This document shows positions 12,491-33,500 of a DNA stretch of 53,807 bases, one piece after another; the stretch's first letter is position 1; the number at the start of each line of letters is the position of its first letter. Below the pieces are notes generated by a model. It ran no database searches and was not told the origin of the DNA. It was given only the letters and a program-made list of their open reading frames with translations. The position numbers and the translations under genes are program-made. The DNA lies in the NCBI GenBank assembly GCA_934667505.1, contig CAKULY010000015.1, forward strand, positions 1 to 53,807, given 5' to 3'. The stretch comes from an uncultured Treponema sp. Lineage in GTDB: Bacteria > Spirochaetota > Spirochaetia > Treponematales > Treponemataceae.

Positions 12491-12584
12491 GAAAAGCTGG
12501 GGGGGGGATGTCTCAAAAATGTCATTGTCGTATCAAGTACGACAATGACATTTTCAGTTTATTGGACATCATCTCCAGCTTTTT
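12491..12584. terminator. Nested palindromic bidirectional terminator with a 9-G tract
   Basis: Three nested inverted repeats lie between convergent clpB and oadB: outer AAAAGCTGG (12492-12500) with CCAGCTTTT (12575-12583), middle GATGTC (12507-12512) with GACATC (12565-12570), and an inner 17-bp perfect stem (12516-12532 with 12538-12554) around loop TCAAG. A run of nine G residues (12499-12507) lies in the left arm. It probably ends transcription from both sides. Confidence 0.6.
12516..12554. repeat. REP-like palindrome, 17-bp perfect stem, loop TCAAG
   Basis: Perfect 17-bp inverted repeat containing ATGTCATTGTCG and its complement. It shares the TCAAG loop and the TGTCAT/ATGACA motif with 21-49 and 13833-13898. 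Confidence 0.7.
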
Positions 12585-12622: not shown

Positions 12623-13759
12623 CTACATTCCGCCCAAGAAGCCCATGATAATTCCGCCGATAATTAGCGAGCCGATTTGTCCTGAGACGTTCGCGCTCAC
12701 CGCGTGCATGAGGATGAAGTTCTGGTTGTCCTCCTCAAGGGCGATTTTCTGGACAACGCGGCTTGCCATAGGAAATGCGGAAATTCCACACGCGCCAATC
12801 ATCGGATTCAGCTTGTCGCCTTTCTTGCGGAACAGGTTCAGGAATTTTGCGAACAGAATTCCGCAGACCGTGTCGCCGATAAACGCAATCAGTCCCAAAA
12901 GCATAATCAGAAGCGTCTGCACGGTAAGGAAATTCTGCGCTGTCATGCTCGCTCCCACGCTGATTCCCAAAAGCAAAGTTACGATGTTTGAAAGCTCGTT
13001 CTGCGCCGCTGCCGAAAGTTTTTCAAGAACGCCGCACTCGCGGATTAAATTTCCGAACATAAGAAAGCCGATTAAAGCCGCCGCGTCCGGAATCAGAATG
13101 CTTACCGCAACCGTAACTGCGACCGGAAAAACGACCATCACCCAGTGCGGAATGTTCTTGTTCTTCGCCTGGATTCTTGTTGTGCGCTCCTTTTTTGTCG
13201 TAAGAAGCTTGATTACAGGCGGCATTATAATCGGAACAAGGCTCATGTACGAGTAGGCGACAACCGTAATCTGCCCCAAAAGATTTTTTGCGAAGCGGCT
13301 TGCGACAACAATCGCAGTAGGACCGTCCGCCGCTCCGATAACACCTATGCTCAGTGCCTCGTTTATGCTGAATCCGAATCCAAAGTAGGCGACCGCCGCC
13401 GCAATGAAAATTCCAAAATGCGCCACAATTCCAAAGACCAAAAGCCACGGACGCTCAAGCAACGGCTTAAAGTCAATCATCGCGCCAACGCCAATAAAAA
13501 TCAGAAGCGGAAAAAGTTCCGTCATGATTCCGCAGTCAAAAAGAATCTGAAGCGCGCCCGGATGCTCCGCCGTTCCAAGCACAACCGCCAGCGGAAGATT
13601 CACCAGAATCGCCCCGAATCCAATCGGCAGAAGAAGCATAGGCTCGTACTTTTTATACACCGCAAGAAAAATCAGCAGCGCGCCAACCGCAATCATCGCA
13701 AAATTCTGCCAGGTCATCGTCCCGATTCCGCTCGAAAAATAATCCAAAATCAGTTCCAT
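12623..13759 (-). CDS. oadB: Na+-translocating decarboxylase beta subunit (OadB/GcdB/MmdB family)
   Basis: Integral membrane subunit that couples decarboxylation of a carboxybiotin intermediate to Na+ export in oxaloacetate, methylmalonyl-CoA or glutaconyl-CoA decarboxylases. It shows about ten hydrophobic segments, the signature GAADGPTAIVVASRFA carrying the essential Asp, and a second signature GNLIRECGVLEKL followed by NIVTLLLGISVGASM. The start is ATG 13759 behind a GGAGG site. The alpha and gamma subunit genes are not adjacent, so the complex would have to be completed from elsewhere, or this copy may work differently. It lies downstream of a yybP-ykoY-like riboswitch. It is GC-rich for this window (33 of 60 in the line at 13081). 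Confidence 0.88.
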   Translation of the reverse strand: MELILDYFSSGIGTMTWQNFAMIAVGALLIFLAVYKKYEPMLLLPIGFGAILVNLPLAVVLGTAEHPGALQILFDCGIMTELFPLLIFIGVGAMIDFKPLLERPWLLVFGIVAHFGIFIAAAVAYFGFGFSINEALSIGVIGAADGPTAIVVASRFAKNLLGQITVVAYSYMSLVPIIMPPVIKLLTTKKERTTRIQAKNKNIPHWVMVVFPVAVTVAVSILIPDAAALIGFLMFGNLIRECGVLEKLSAAAQNELSNIVTLLLGISVGASMTAQNFLTVQTLLIMLLGLIAFIGDTVCGILFAKFLNLFRKKGDKLNPMIGACGISAFPMASRVVQKIALEEDNQNFILMHAVSANVSGQIGSLIIGGIIMGFLGGM

Positions 13760-13832
13760 TTTAAAACCTCCGTTTTGACTGATTGTCGTTATCTGCATTG
13801 CAAAGTCTGTCATTATCCAGCTTGACTTCCAC

Positions 13833-13898
13833 TGTCATCTTCGGGCTTGACCCGAAGATCTGTTGCAGGAGATTGCCGCGTCAAGCGCGACAATGACA
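13833..13898. repeat. REP-like element, two hairpins with CTTGA/TCAAG loops
   Basis: ATCTTCGGG-CTTGA-CCCGAAGAT is followed by a second hairpin (ATTGCCGCG, TCAA, GCGCGACAAT), all bracketed by TGTCAT at 13833 and ATGACA at 13893. It lies between the riboswitch terminator and oadB, so it is part of the oadB leader. A degenerate relic of another unit precedes it at about 13808-13835. Confidence 0.65.
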
Positions 13899-13915
13899 TT
13901 CTGGGGGGAAGGCAC

Positions 13916-13984
13916 AAAAAAAAGACCCTTTGCCCAATCACCCTGAAATAATGAAAATAACAGGATAATCAGGCAAAAGGTCTT
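13916..13984 (-). terminator. Riboswitch expression-platform terminator
   Basis: On the minus strand GACCTTTTGCC pairs with GGCAAAGGGTC (plus-strand 13972-13982 and 13924-13934), with inner pairing of the flanking TGATTATCCTG and CAGGGTGATT segments, followed by eight T residues (13916-13923). Its 5' arm is also the 3' strand of aptamer helix P1, so aptamer folding and termination are mutually exclusive. That predicts an ON switch. Confidence 0.75.
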
Positions 13985-14068
13985 GTTTCCTCGGTCGAGC
14001 CGAAGCCTAAGAACCAGACTCAAAGAGCCGGCTGTTGATTCTTAAGGAAGTAACTACTCCCCCTTTGC
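13973..14068 (-). promoter_or_regulatory. yybP-ykoY (Mn2+) riboswitch aptamer
   Basis: The minus-strand RNA begins GCAAAGGGGGAGTAG and ends CAAGACCTTTTGC, matching the conserved P1/L1 strands of the yybP-ykoY class (AAAGGGGAGUAG ... CAAGACCUUU). P1 is 8 bp (GCAAAGGG with CCTTTTGC). An internal stem TAAGAA/TTCTTA encloses the loop TCAACAG and a CCGGCTC hairpin, which fits L3 and P3 of the class. A UUCG-capped hairpin follows. In known examples Mn2+ bridges L1 and L3 and favours expression of Mn2+ exporters; here the next gene is an oadB homologue. The assignment is from memory of the consensus. Confidence 0.78.
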
Positions 14069-14075
14069 TTTTCGC

Positions 14076-14105
14076 AGTATGCACGGAAAATGGGAGCAAT
14101 GTCAA
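14076..14105 (-). promoter_or_regulatory. sigma70 promoter of the riboswitch-oadB transcript
   Basis: TTGACA (14105-14100), an 18-bp spacer, then CATACT (14081-14076) on the minus strand. The predicted +1 falls a few bases before the aptamer's first P1 strand, which is what a riboswitch leader needs. Confidence 0.7.
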
Positions 14106-14121
14106 GACGTAAAAAAATTGC

Positions 14122-21203: not shown

Positions 21204-23918
21204 TTAGATTTTTGCTGCTTTTATATCTTTTACGGTGTAATTGTATTTGTGCTCATTGATTGTAAAAGTAATTGTTTCTCCAGCTTTTTTGTCCATAATC
21301 GCATTTCCAAAAGGAGCCATGTAAGAAATTACATTGTTATCAGGATCTGATTCCCATGGTCCAAGAATAGTAAACGTTTCTTCTTCGTTTGTGTCATTGT
21401 TTTTAAGTGTAACAACGGTTGCAAATGAAATAATTGAAGTTGTAATTGTTGTTGGATCAAATACTACAGCTCTGTTTAATTCTGCCTGAAGCTTTGAAAG
21501 CTGCTCGTTCAACCAATGCTGTTTTTCTTTTGCTGCATGGAATTCGGCATTTTCTTTTAAGTCGCCTTTTTCCTTTGCTTCTGCAATTTCTTTTGCATTT
21601 TCTGGAATGTCCACAGTTTGAAGCCTGTTGAAAAGCTCCTTCTTTTCGTTGAGTTTTTTAGCAGTAACCAACATTCCTTTTGGAGCCTGGCTCTTTTCTT
21701 CAGAAACATGGAACTTAAATTCTGGATATTTTTCCCTAATTCTGTTTCTCATTGTCGTCTTGTAAGAAGAATCAAGCTCAGCAAGGTCGTCAATAAGAGT
21801 GTACATGCGTTTTACTGTTTCTTCATCATTTTCGAACATAAAATTCAAGAGCGTGTCGTTTTCAAACAGAAGCTGAGTTGCTTTCTTGTTGATTTTTTTG
21901 TTCTCTGTTGTATTTACATGGTTTGCGATTTCCCTAAACGTAAGTTCAATTAAATGGATTAAAGTTATAAGTTGCTTTTCGTAAGAAATTCCGCAGTCTT
22001 TGAACCAATCTTCATTCTGGCAGTTTTCAAACATATACAATACTGCATTTCTGTAGTCTTTGCAGTTTGTAAAACAGTTTGCAGCCAGTTTTTCAAGTTT
22101 ATCTGCAAAACCGCTGTTTACCAGTGTTGAAATCATTTCGCTTGAATGTACAATAGGGAAGAGCTTTATATACTGGTCAGACCAATCAGGAAGCATCCTT
22201 ACATTCTGAAGGAAATCCTTTTGCAAAGATGTGTTTTTTGTGTCTTTTAGCTGAGTATAAATTTCCCTTGGATCTTCAATTTTTTCGTAAATCTGCTGGA
22301 ATGAAACTTTGCAAGGATTTACAAGCTGCTTGATAGAATTTGTTATTTCTTGAACAACAAGGTATGATGCAAGCGCTTCTTTTGTGATTCCAGAAGAACT
22401 TTCAATAGAATCTAGGGTTTTAACGTATCCTGCAAAATAGTTGAACATTTCGGCGAAGAGCTCGCTCGTTTTGTCTGTTTCGTCTTTCTTTACGTATTTC
22501 ATTATTATGTCGATGCGCGCAAAGAACTGTTTTTGAGCTTTGAACTCTGTAGAAAGTTTTTCTTCTATGCTGATTTCATTTTCTCGCACAGTATACATTG
22601 AAATATCGTTTGGATTTACACCGAAAGATGAATTTGTTTCAAGGCAGTGCTTTGCAGCGCTGTTCCAAGATGTCCATTCCCCAGGAGTAAGAATTGAAGG
22701 AACAAGCTCTGCTTTAATTCTTTTGAAGTCACAGTTGTTATCAAAACTTTTAATGATTGTTTTAAGAGCCCAAACTTTGTCTTCTTTGATTTTTTTAGCC
22801 AAAACTTCTTTCTTATTTTTTGCCTTCAATACCCAAATATGATCGTTAGAAAGAGGCGTTAATGCGGTTACTGCCATTTTTAAAGAGATTGTATGTGTTC
22901 CAACTTTTTTACCAAAATAAATTGTAAGAACATCGTTTTCTACTTTTGTGATAATTCCAACGCCCCAAGCTCTGTGGAATACATAGCTTTTTACATCAAA
23001 AGCTATGTGCTTTTCAAAGTCGTTTATAGCTTCAAAAACATTTCTGTAGTTCTGCGTAAGATTTGATGAGCGAATATAATCGTCAAGATGGCTGTGGTCC
23101 GCATATTTGCCTTTGTAGCAGTCAGTAATTTCTTTTCTAGCCCAAATGTCGTGCTGATCGATTGATAAAATTTCTTTAAGAAGGCGAATAGCTGTATCCC
23201 ATTTTTTGTTGTCTTTGTACCAATTGTAAAGTTCCTGCAAAAGAATTGCAGTCTTATCTTCTCCAAGAGTTTTTGCAACCTTTCTTTTTACAAGCTGGAA
23301 GAAGTCTATTTCCTGAGGAATAAGTTGAACAAGCTTTGTCCAAAGTTCCTTTACGGCGTTTAAATTGCCTTTGTTTATATAGCGAAGAATTGCTTTTTTG
23401 TAGTACTCAGTTGCATTTTCAACGTCGCTTTCTGATTCAAAGTGTTCTGCGAGAGCTCTTGCGAGGTCTGCTTCTTCAAAATCTATTTTAACTATTTGAG
23501 CATACAAATCCCATACTTTTGCATTTCCGTTGGAGCGATAGTATTCTGCCAACGTCCTAAGTGCAAATTTGTTGTTCGGATCATCTTCTAGAATGCTTGT
23601 GCATAGATATTCAACTACAGATTCTTTATGGTTCTTTTGGAATATATCAACAAGCGTTACAAGCGCAGAATTGTCAAGAGTTCCTTTCTGCAAAGAAATC
23701 ATTCCTGAAATATACAATGCAATTATACTGTCTTTTGAATGCAAAAGTTGTTCGTCACAAATGTTTTGAATTTCGTCCAAGCAGTTTTCACTTCTGGCTT
23801 TTTCTACGATTCCAGCAAGTTCAACAAACTTTTCTTTGGTATAGTTGCTGATAGTGGCTCGTGTCCAAGTTTCTTCTTTGAGCATGTCCTGAACGGATTT
23901 GATTAGTTCTTCTGACAT
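21204..23918 (-). CDS. greA: Transcript cleavage factor GreA with giant N-terminal extension
   Basis: 904 residues. The last about 160 are a complete GreA: coiled coil with AKEKGDLKENAEFHAAKEKQ (the acidic tip that enters the RNA polymerase secondary channel) and a C-terminal FKBP-like domain (TILGPWESDPDNN). It rescues backtracked polymerase by stimulating RNA cleavage. The first about 740 residues are helical TPR-like repeats (for example ALRTLAEYYRSNGNAKVWDL) followed by a region with a small beta domain near residue 320 (VFHRAWGVGIITKVENDVLT). Treponemes are known to carry about 900-residue GreA proteins, so this is lineage-typical and not an assembly error. GGGAG lies 7 nt before the ATG. 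Confidence 0.92.
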   Translation of the reverse strand: MSEELIKSVQDMLKEETWTRATISNYTKEKFVELAGIVEKARSENCLDEIQNICDEQLLHSKDSIIALYISGMISLQKGTLDNSALVTLVDIFQKNHKESVVEYLCTSILEDDPNNKFALRTLAEYYRSNGNAKVWDLYAQIVKIDFEEADLARALAEHFESESDVENATEYYKKAILRYINKGNLNAVKELWTKLVQLIPQEIDFFQLVKRKVAKTLGEDKTAILLQELYNWYKDNKKWDTAIRLLKEILSIDQHDIWARKEITDCYKGKYADHSHLDDYIRSSNLTQNYRNVFEAINDFEKHIAFDVKSYVFHRAWGVGIITKVENDVLTIYFGKKVGTHTISLKMAVTALTPLSNDHIWVLKAKNKKEVLAKKIKEDKVWALKTIIKSFDNNCDFKRIKAELVPSILTPGEWTSWNSAAKHCLETNSSFGVNPNDISMYTVRENEISIEEKLSTEFKAQKQFFARIDIIMKYVKKDETDKTSELFAEMFNYFAGYVKTLDSIESSSGITKEALASYLVVQEITNSIKQLVNPCKVSFQQIYEKIEDPREIYTQLKDTKNTSLQKDFLQNVRMLPDWSDQYIKLFPIVHSSEMISTLVNSGFADKLEKLAANCFTNCKDYRNAVLYMFENCQNEDWFKDCGISYEKQLITLIHLIELTFREIANHVNTTENKKINKKATQLLFENDTLLNFMFENDEETVKRMYTLIDDLAELDSSYKTTMRNRIREKYPEFKFHVSEEKSQAPKGMLVTAKKLNEKKELFNRLQTVDIPENAKEIAEAKEKGDLKENAEFHAAKEKQHWLNEQLSKLQAELNRAVVFDPTTITTSIISFATVVTLKNNDTNEEETFTILGPWESDPDNNVISYMAPFGNAIMDKKAGETITFTINEHKYNYTVKDIKAAKI

Positions 23919-32758: not shown

Positions 32759-33500
32759 AGATAGAAATAAAGATACAAGCGGTGGAATTAGACTTCAAGT
32801 TTATTTAGCCCATTCTGGGGTTGCTAGCAGAAGAGCCAGCGAAAAGATTATTCAAGAAGGGCGGGTTTGCATAAATGGAAAAACTGTTTGCGAAATGGGG
32901 GAAAAGGTTTTTCCAAATGACGTTGTAACTGTTGACGGAAAAAATATTACTTTAGAAGAAAAAAAACGCTATATTCTATTGTATAAGCCTGCAGGTTATG
33001 TGTGTTCGATGGCAGATGAAAAAGACAGACCCATTGCAGTGGATATACTAAAAAAAGATTTTAGCGAGCGTCTTTATAATATTGGTCGGCTTGATATGTT
33101 TAGCCAAGGCCTTATAATTTTTACAAACGACGGAGATTTTGCCGCGACTCTTTCACATCCTTCTGCGGAGCTAGAAAAAGAATATGTTGTGGATTCCAGC
33201 GTTCCTTTGCCAAGAGAACTTTGTTCTGAATTTGAAAAAGGTATCCGTGTGGATGGAATTTTTTATAAGTGCAAAAAAGCATTGGAAATTAATTCTCACA
33301 GAATAAAAATTGTTTTAGTAGAAGGAAAAAATCGCGAAATAAGAAACGTTTTTCAATCTAAAAATGTAGGAATAAGAAAACTTGTCCGCACAAGGATTGG
33401 AAATATTTGCGCGGAAAATATGCAGCCTGGTGAATACAGAGAGCTTTCTTCTATTGAAGTGCAAGGGCTTTTAAAGCTTTGTAAAAATAAGTGTTTATAA
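32748..33500 (+). CDS. rRNA pseudouridine synthase, RsuA/RluB family
   Basis: 250 residues from TTG 32748. N-terminal S4 RNA-binding domain (LQVYLAHSGVASRRASEKII), then the catalytic domain with GRLDMFSQGLIIFTNDGDF, where canonical GRLD-x-x-(T/S)-x-GLLLLTNDG carries the catalytic Asp. The later motif VLVEGKNREIRNVFQS is diagnostic. It is likely to modify 23S rRNA (RluB type, given the scpAB context). The chosen TTG has AGAGG with a 7-nt spacer. An ATG at 32700 in the same frame would overlap scpB by 59 bp and would add an unusual Lys-rich N-terminus. An intrinsic terminator follows. Confidence 0.85.
   Translation: MQDKDRNKDTSGGIRLQVYLAHSGVASRRASEKIIQEGRVCINGKTVCEMGEKVFPNDVVTVDGKNITLEEKKRYILLYKPAGYVCSMADEKDRPIAVDILKKDFSERLYNIGRLDMFSQGLIIFTNDGDFAATLSHPSAELEKEYVVDSSVPLPRELCSEFEKGIRVDGIFYKCKKALEINSHRIKIVLVEGKNREIRNVFQSKNVGIRKLVRTRIGNICAENMQPGEYRELSSIEVQGLLKLCKNKCL

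Follow-up and report, generated by a model that had tools for sequence, protein, structure and literature searches.

Gut Treponema carry an RNA switch of the manganese family in front of a gene for a stand-alone sodium-pump subunit. The case described here lies on the minus strand of a 53,807-nucleotide stretch of an uncultured Treponema sp. (the window; contig CAKULY010000015.1 of assembly GCA_934667505.1), where a leader of the yybP-ykoY family precedes oadB, which encodes a beta subunit of oxaloacetate decarboxylase (OAD). We propose, at a probability of roughly 0.55, that this riboswitch, whose loop L3 has six nucleotides, controls the lone oadB by transcription termination and that its likeliest ligand is Mn2+. 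In the open-licence literature we found no oadB described as standing under a yybP-ykoY element; other reports may exist. The six-nucleotide L3 on OadB leaders is a new feature, absent from a preliminary description of this DNA that was made from the sequence alone, and this altered metal-binding loop makes both the true ion of the switch and the job of oadB directly testable.

The family assignment was computed with a covariance model (R3) built from 34 MntP and GDT1 leader aptamers, that of E. coli mntP included, and from no OadB leader; the gene names MntP and GDT1 reflect our reading of the protein sequences. When R3 was run on both strands of the 53,807 bases, the leader was the sole match (47.9 bits, E = 3.1e-11). 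Of 41 loci chosen as variants or controls, the model matched 40, the sole miss being E. coli alx. A further model, R2, likewise misses alx and scores the leader at 79.5 bits, its training set including the leader itself. In a 27-sequence alignment (A4), helices P1, P3 and P4 covary: 94.7% of cells are paired, compared to 81.2% in shuffles, and 71 double changes were counted, compared to 23.4 in shuffles and 4-14 once the partner strand was slid. Across 11 aligned OadB leaders, L1 (GGGGAGUAG), P3 with L3, the 3' AGAC core and P1 form an invariant core (11/11), as does the ACA that begins L3 and hence the adenosine equivalent to A48 of the Xanthomonas oryzae aptamer and A41 of the Lactococcus lactis one (11/11); invariance of the A48 position across all parsed aptamers carries no weight, since the parser demanded that adenosine. 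The oadB leader is a yybP-ykoY (Mn2+-class) aptamer, and R3 and the covariation thereby bear out what the preliminary description had claimed.

Rfam is silent on this leader. Nothing reached a gathering score, and no RF00080 match up to E 10 was obtained for a 601-base stretch. The preliminary description had offered the lack of a significant match to any riboswitch model as grounds for abandoning it; that lack is what Rfam returned, but R3 matches and RF00080 proved insensitive. Among controls, the E. coli mntP leader, at 41.6 bits, fell short of the cut-off of 45 and that of alx was not listed, while none of 195 Treponemataceae-family genomes held an RF00080 match at or above the cut-off. 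The silence is thus weak evidence, and Rfam as the only judge would mislead; because RF00080 misses known members, R3 was built from MntP/GDT1 aptamers. RF00080 is the "Manganese" model of Rfam release 15, and many yybP-ykoY members may lack annotation. Like the yybP-ykoY/Mn2+ riboswitch (RF00080) at large, the leader has P1, L1, P3 with UCA/UGG, an L3 starting with ACA, a 3' core CAAGACC, a terminator after P1 and a match to the MntP/GDT1 model; it differs from that class in its L3 (six nucleotides, not seven), in having no evident P2 hairpin, in lying below Rfam detection and in its target gene, OadB. The features of the locus, in the order of transcription, are as follows.

14076-14105, minus strand: predicted sigma70 promoter TTGACA-18-CATACT, with 10 of 12 consensus bases and similar sites in relatives
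13974-14067, minus strand: yybP-ykoY-family aptamer, 94 nucleotides (R3 match, 47.9 bits, E = 3.1e-11)
14061-14067, minus strand: P1 5' strand CAAAGGG, partner of 13980-13974
14062-14054, minus strand: conserved 5' core GGGGAGTAG, from the sequence
14054-14060, minus strand: L1 core GGAGTAG, invariant in alignments A1 and A4
14036-14044, minus strand: P3 5' strand with TCA at its end, partner of 14016-14008
14038-14033, minus strand: TCAACA stretch, from the sequence
14030-14035, minus strand: L3 loop ACAGCC, six nucleotides (numbering after PMC6754395)
14033, minus strand: equivalent of A48 in X. oryzae, the adenosine that coordinates Mn2+ (numbering after PMC6754395)
14017-14029, minus strand: distal P3 hairpin GGCTC-TTT-GAGTC, from sequence and fold
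14008-14016, minus strand: P3 3' strand with TGG at its start, from fold, alignment and covariation
13989-14005, minus strand: P4 hairpin CTTCGG-CTCGA-CCGAGG, from fold and covariation
13985-13976, minus strand: conserved 3' core CAAGACCTTT, from the sequence
13979-13985, minus strand: 3' core CAAGACC, from the sequence and alignment A1
13974-13980, minus strand: P1 3' strand CCTTTTG, common to the terminator 5' strand, from the sequence and leader comparison
13916-13982, minus strand: intrinsic terminator with stem 13982-13924 (-33.8 kcal/mol) and T8 at 13923-13916, from leader comparison
13767-13771, minus strand: Shine-Dalgarno-like GGAGG, from the sequence
12623-13759, minus strand: lone OadB paralogue, 378 amino acids, ATG at 13759 (PF03977, TIGR01109, tree and residue comparison)

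The promoter, the conserved strands with an L3-like loop and the T8 terminator competing with P1 had all been described beforehand, and each was found in place. Promoter-type sites as such occur at chance level (3 seen, 2.8 expected in shuffles); in the OadB leaders of relatives the site recurs, with an exact TTGACA in 12 of 15 and a best promoter score of at least 9/12 in all 15. The 361-nucleotide stretch 13750-14110, which includes the terminator and a palindromic insert, folds 6.8 standard deviations below dinucleotide shuffles. The 5' strand of the terminator contains the P1 3' strand, and the P1 3' strand is also where the terminator stem starts in 15 OadB leaders, the window's included, all chosen because they carry CAAGACCTTTTG; both helices therefore cannot form at once. 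Since the terminator reuses the P1 3' strand and the L. lactis member is called an ON switch (PMC9190785), we infer that the oadB leader is an ON switch whose ligand lets transcription pass. Transcription would start just upstream of P1. With no ligand, the P1 3' strand would pair into the terminator, and the RNA would end before oadB; with ligand bound, L1 and L3 would dock, P1 would be held, the terminator would be blocked and oadB would be transcribed. In one review the class figures as OFF switches (PMC11477304), a label that does not fit the layout of this leader. The lone OadB may then be an exporter of Mn2+ in its own right, working against Na+ or H+ for instance, or may move Na+ in a Mn2+-loaded cell.

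The preliminary description had proposed a survey of genomes for riboswitch-oadB pairs, and the pair does recur. A search with the OadB protein gave 19 loci, among them 12 from Spirochaetota, Treponema included (L001-L010, L012 and L017; L numbers denote loci and G numbers genomes). L003, which starts at a contig end without upstream DNA, was left out of the leader count, and the leader stands upstream of oadB in 10 of the remaining 11 (L001, L002, L004-L009, L012 and L017). This recurrence, together with the separate clade formed by the lone OadBs (see below), speaks against the suggestion that in this genome the original target gene had been lost and replaced. The exception among the 11, L010 (genome G009), lacks both the leader and the first ~105 codons of oadB. 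An unrelated gene region lies upstream, and R2 matches nothing in G009; a truncation of the gene or a break in the assembly may account for this. A model of the OadB leaders (R1) matched 31 of 195 Treponemataceae-family genomes. Downstream of its matches lie genes for OadB, for a CitMHS/ArsB-like transporter (PF03600) and for an NCX-type exchanger (PF01699), with P-type ATPases behind two of the weakest matches; canonical aptamers occur in R1-matched genomes on mntP (L020 in G005) and on GDT1/UPF0016 (L021 in Treponema berlinense). In 7 of 14 OadB genomes (G002, G004, G005, G006, G008, G080 and G141) a CitMHS gene was found that matches over most of the query, so OadB and CitMHS are not strict replacements for each other. 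An aptamer precedes this gene in G004; none was seen before it in G002, G008 or G080, all close relatives of the window (L314, L313 and L316, respectively), and in L313 and L314 the CitMHS gene follows one that by eye resembles the T component of an ECF transporter. Two non-spirochaete OadB relatives, L011 and L013 from Clostridia, have an MgtC-like gene upstream (by eye) and may also be lone genes.

By PF03977 (E = 6e-142) and TIGR01109 (E = 6e-119), the window protein is an OAD beta subunit of full length. It had been described as lacking alpha and gamma partners nearby, and indeed no OadA-like frame occurs in the 53,807-base window and no alpha or gamma gene was found among seven proteins scanned around oadB, although gamma was not searched for window-wide. 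We surveyed OadA and OadB in 14 genomes, 12 with aptamer-linked OadB and 2 with aptamer-linked CitMHS. OadA is present in 12 of the 14; a full-length OadB lies no more than about 2 kb away from it in 10, and a fragment does in 2 more. G010 (1.3 Mb) and G141 (2.8 Mb) show a lone OadB without any OadA. A tree was computed for 30 rows (14 lone OadBs, 10 beside OadA in Treponema and 6 from Clostridia and Chloroflexi), in which one 100/100 branch splits the 14 lone OadBs from the 16 others, under a midpoint root and with a warning of long branches. A recent duplication of the operon beta gene was therefore rejected, as the lone OadBs form a separate clade.

Compared with the beta subunit of StOAD (StOadB; PDB 6IVA/6IWW), the lone OadBs keep ten residues: E40, D203, Y229, N311, N373, G377, S382, R389, N412 and S419. 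D203, S382 and N412, reported as Na+-site residues of StOadB (PMC7274780), are kept in every lone row long enough to show them. Unlike StOadB, the window protein is encoded by a lone gene, belongs to a clade apart from the OadA-adjacent OadBs and has Lys at the position of Arg304, as lone OadBs do; the ten copies beside OadA have Arg. We do not claim this change as a loss of function, since R304A is reported to inhibit StOAD only moderately (PMC7274780) and other OadBs also depart from Arg304, at a place where the alignment is uncertain. Given the residues kept and the separate clade, the Na+ site is intact by sequence, and the lone OadB is no recent copy of the pump subunit.

We estimate the chance that Mn2+ is the ligand of the oadB leader at somewhat over one half. 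Mn2+ is favored because CitMHS and NCX genes, which in Treponemataceae follow aptamers of this kind as OadB does, also sit in second place behind mntP or GDT1 under aptamers whose L3 has seven nucleotides. In G195 (L058 and L311), a CitMHS of the Treponema subtype lies directly behind mntP under a seven-nucleotide aptamer, in one operon. This protein is 64% identical to that of L044 (62-70% over a fragment to those of L044 and L033), and elsewhere CitMHS of this subtype is controlled by variant aptamers. In L228, an NCX gene follows GDT1 under a seven-nucleotide aptamer. G004 bears closely similar six-nucleotide aptamers on OadB and on CitMHS, which therefore form one regulon there. Also on the side of Mn2+ are the A48-equivalent adenosine, kept in all 11 aligned OadB leaders, and the P-type ATPases up to 65% identical that occur under both six- and seven-nucleotide aptamers.

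Several observations, the loop itself among them, weigh against Mn2+. In the X. oryzae structure L3 is ACAUACU and in that of L. lactis UCAAUUC, the third nucleotide being the Mn2+-coordinating adenosine (PMC6754395); E. coli mntP has ACAUACU and alx, read by eye, UCAUUAC, and both E. coli leaders are reported Mn2+ sensors. The window's ACAGCC thus has six nucleotides where these four reference aptamers have seven, and deletion of one nucleotide just after the Mn2+-coordinating adenosine could alter ion choice. We tallied L3 in 138 distinct P3 segments parsed from fetched loci; the rows are not independent, 36 unparsed loci are left out, 8 of the 138 rows have no assigned gene, and the Bacillota share comprises 30 loci plus 80 places from a match list, a part of all matches. 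Corrections by eye made L058 an MntP leader with CitMHS second and gave the GDT1 leader L181 seven nucleotides in place of a misread five; outside the count, the unparsed L055 is an MntP leader whose L3 by eye has seven. In the corrected tally, L3 has seven nucleotides in 21/21 MntP and 35/35 GDT1 leaders. It has six in 8/8 OadB leaders, and six in 6 and eight in 9 CitMHS leaders, so that none of 23 OadB or CitMHS first genes stands behind a seven-nucleotide L3. Three genomes (G005, G006 and G162) carry a seven-nucleotide aptamer on MntP or GDT1 together with a six- or eight-nucleotide one on OadB or CitMHS, and three more (G538, G774 and G832) carry a seven-nucleotide aptamer on GDT1 with a six-nucleotide one on TerC or a P-type ATPase; both loop types within one genome would be expected if the two sense different things.

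Other points on the same side concern the genes. OadB is a Na+ protein family, and the Na+ ligands are kept in the lone paralogue. The Na+-I riboswitch (RF03071), for which we found 21 matches in 16 of 398 Bacillota genomes, precedes CitMHS relatives in two cases (L294 and, below the cut-off, L305) and OadA in one (L289). A terC-citMHS operon stands under one seven-nucleotide aptamer in L225 (G568), but its CitMHS is 56-59% identical to the Na+-I type and 28-34% to the Treponema subtype, and therefore lends little support to Mn2+ on the Treponema gene; it is a transporter type common to Mn2+-type and Na+-I riboswitches.

The pattern of L3 lengths is strong at the two extremes, with a mixed middle. 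P-type ATPase leaders have six nucleotides in 7 cases, seven in 15, eight in 7 and nine in 1; TerC leaders have six in 4, seven in 8 and eight in 3; and NCX leaders have six in 1, seven in 2 and eight in 3. L3 length as a clean ligand marker was accordingly rejected, TerC and P-type ATPases being mixed: ATPases up to 65% identical stand under both six- and seven-nucleotide aptamers, with no split by length. Lengths other than seven occur in 51 of the 138 aptamers of the corrected tally, and seven nucleotides is no published criterion.

It is conceivable, though on balance rather unlikely, that the six- and eight-nucleotide aptamers branched off from the Mn2+ riboswitch and were re-tuned to another cation, with Na+ the boldest candidate. 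A variant class tuned to Na+ would switch on Na+-handling transporters (the lone OadB, CitMHS and NCX). This would account for the absence of MntP and GDT1 from the tallied six- and eight-nucleotide leaders, for the confinement of OadB and CitMHS first genes to them and for the residues by which StOAD binds Na+ being kept in the lone OadB. Na+-I riboswitches, moreover, precede CitMHS and OadA genes in the cases given above, White et al. (2022; PMC9337991) report oxaloacetate decarboxylase genes under Na+-I, and a change of ligand from Li+ to Na+ has been demonstrated in the Li+-I class (PMC9646797). We nonetheless consider a Na+ sensor unlikely: six- or eight-nucleotide loops also occur on TerC (7/15) and P-type ATPase (14/30, plus one of nine nucleotides) leaders, the Treponema CitMHS subtype shares an operon with mntP under a seven-nucleotide aptamer and is only 26-30% identical to the Na+-I-controlled proteins, NCX would import Na+ while exporting Ca2+, and the aptamer is otherwise intact in L1 and in the 3' core. 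That the leader simply is a Na+-I (DUF1646) riboswitch, a comparison proposed at the outset, has a practically negligible probability and was rejected; the target gene family fits, with oad-related and CitMHS genes among the targets of both aptamer types, but the leader does not match Na+-I in sequence or structure, the 601-base stretch gives no RF03071 match up to E 10 and the R3 match has an E value of 3.1e-11. The Na+-II riboswitch (nhaA-I/Li+-I motif variants) provides a precedent in that a terminator-bearing variant has a changed ion choice (PMC9646797); it is a different aptamer, and no nhaA-motif family is among the 13 Rfam matches of the leader stretch.

Quite unlikely, in our judgment, is a variant aptamer whose ligand is a different divalent ion (Ca2+ or a transition metal other than Mn), with OadB, CitMHS, NCX, TerC and P-type ATPases exporting or buffering it. 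Of the P-type ATPases fetched at length, all 13 under six- or eight-nucleotide aptamers have a PEGL motif and the three PEALS ones are all under seven-nucleotide aptamers; NCX and SERCA-like proteins are Ca2+ families; and Sherlock and Breaker (2020; PMC7266159) expected yybP variants with other ligands, other divalent ions among them, and cited work in preparation. PEGLP ATPases, however, are also found under seven-nucleotide aptamers (11/14), OadB is no Ca2+ family, and mntP and GDT1 are the genes to which the operons point. Very improbable is a degenerate leader, that is, an inherited aptamer that no longer responds, with the terminator as a constitutive attenuator. Such decay would be consistent with the failure of Rfam to detect the leader and with an L3 that departs from the solved structures, yet the core is invariant in 11 leaders, the covariation is double-sided and the terminator overlaps P1 in the 15 examined OadB leaders (those carrying CAAGACCTTTTG).

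Should the ligand be Mn2+, the lone OadB, CitMHS and NCX, whose family names point to the transport of sodium, citrate and calcium, would be candidates in spirochaetes for exporting Mn2+ or for moving ions in response to it. If the ligand is not Mn2+, the length of one loop would have changed the ion choice of a very widespread riboswitch architecture; were Na+ the ion, this would be a third type of Na+ riboswitch, in which a divalent-ion aptamer had come to sense an alkali metal and to govern a regulon of OadB, CitMHS and NCX. The seven-nucleotide aptamer on GDT1 and the six-nucleotide one on oadB within Treponema berlinense form a pair on which the expectation of Sherlock and Breaker can be tested directly.

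Around oadB lie clpB (convergent), an unassigned gene and genes for an fn3-like protein, a TetR regulator, a DUF2271-like protein and a flavodoxin-like reductase. Just upstream of the T. berlinense oadB leader, Rfam TD-1 and TD-2 gave sub-threshold matches (L029, 1199-1350). A weak R2 match in the window at 32893-33036 on the plus strand (E = 0.89) is probably due to chance. The spacer between the terminator and oadB (13780-13910) exceeds those of L001, L002 and L009 by about 100 bases and contains a palindromic stretch; related TGTCATTGTCG/CGACAATGACA sequences also lie in the window at 12520-12550, near 37 and near 21747, and the stretch looks like a small dispersed palindromic repeat.

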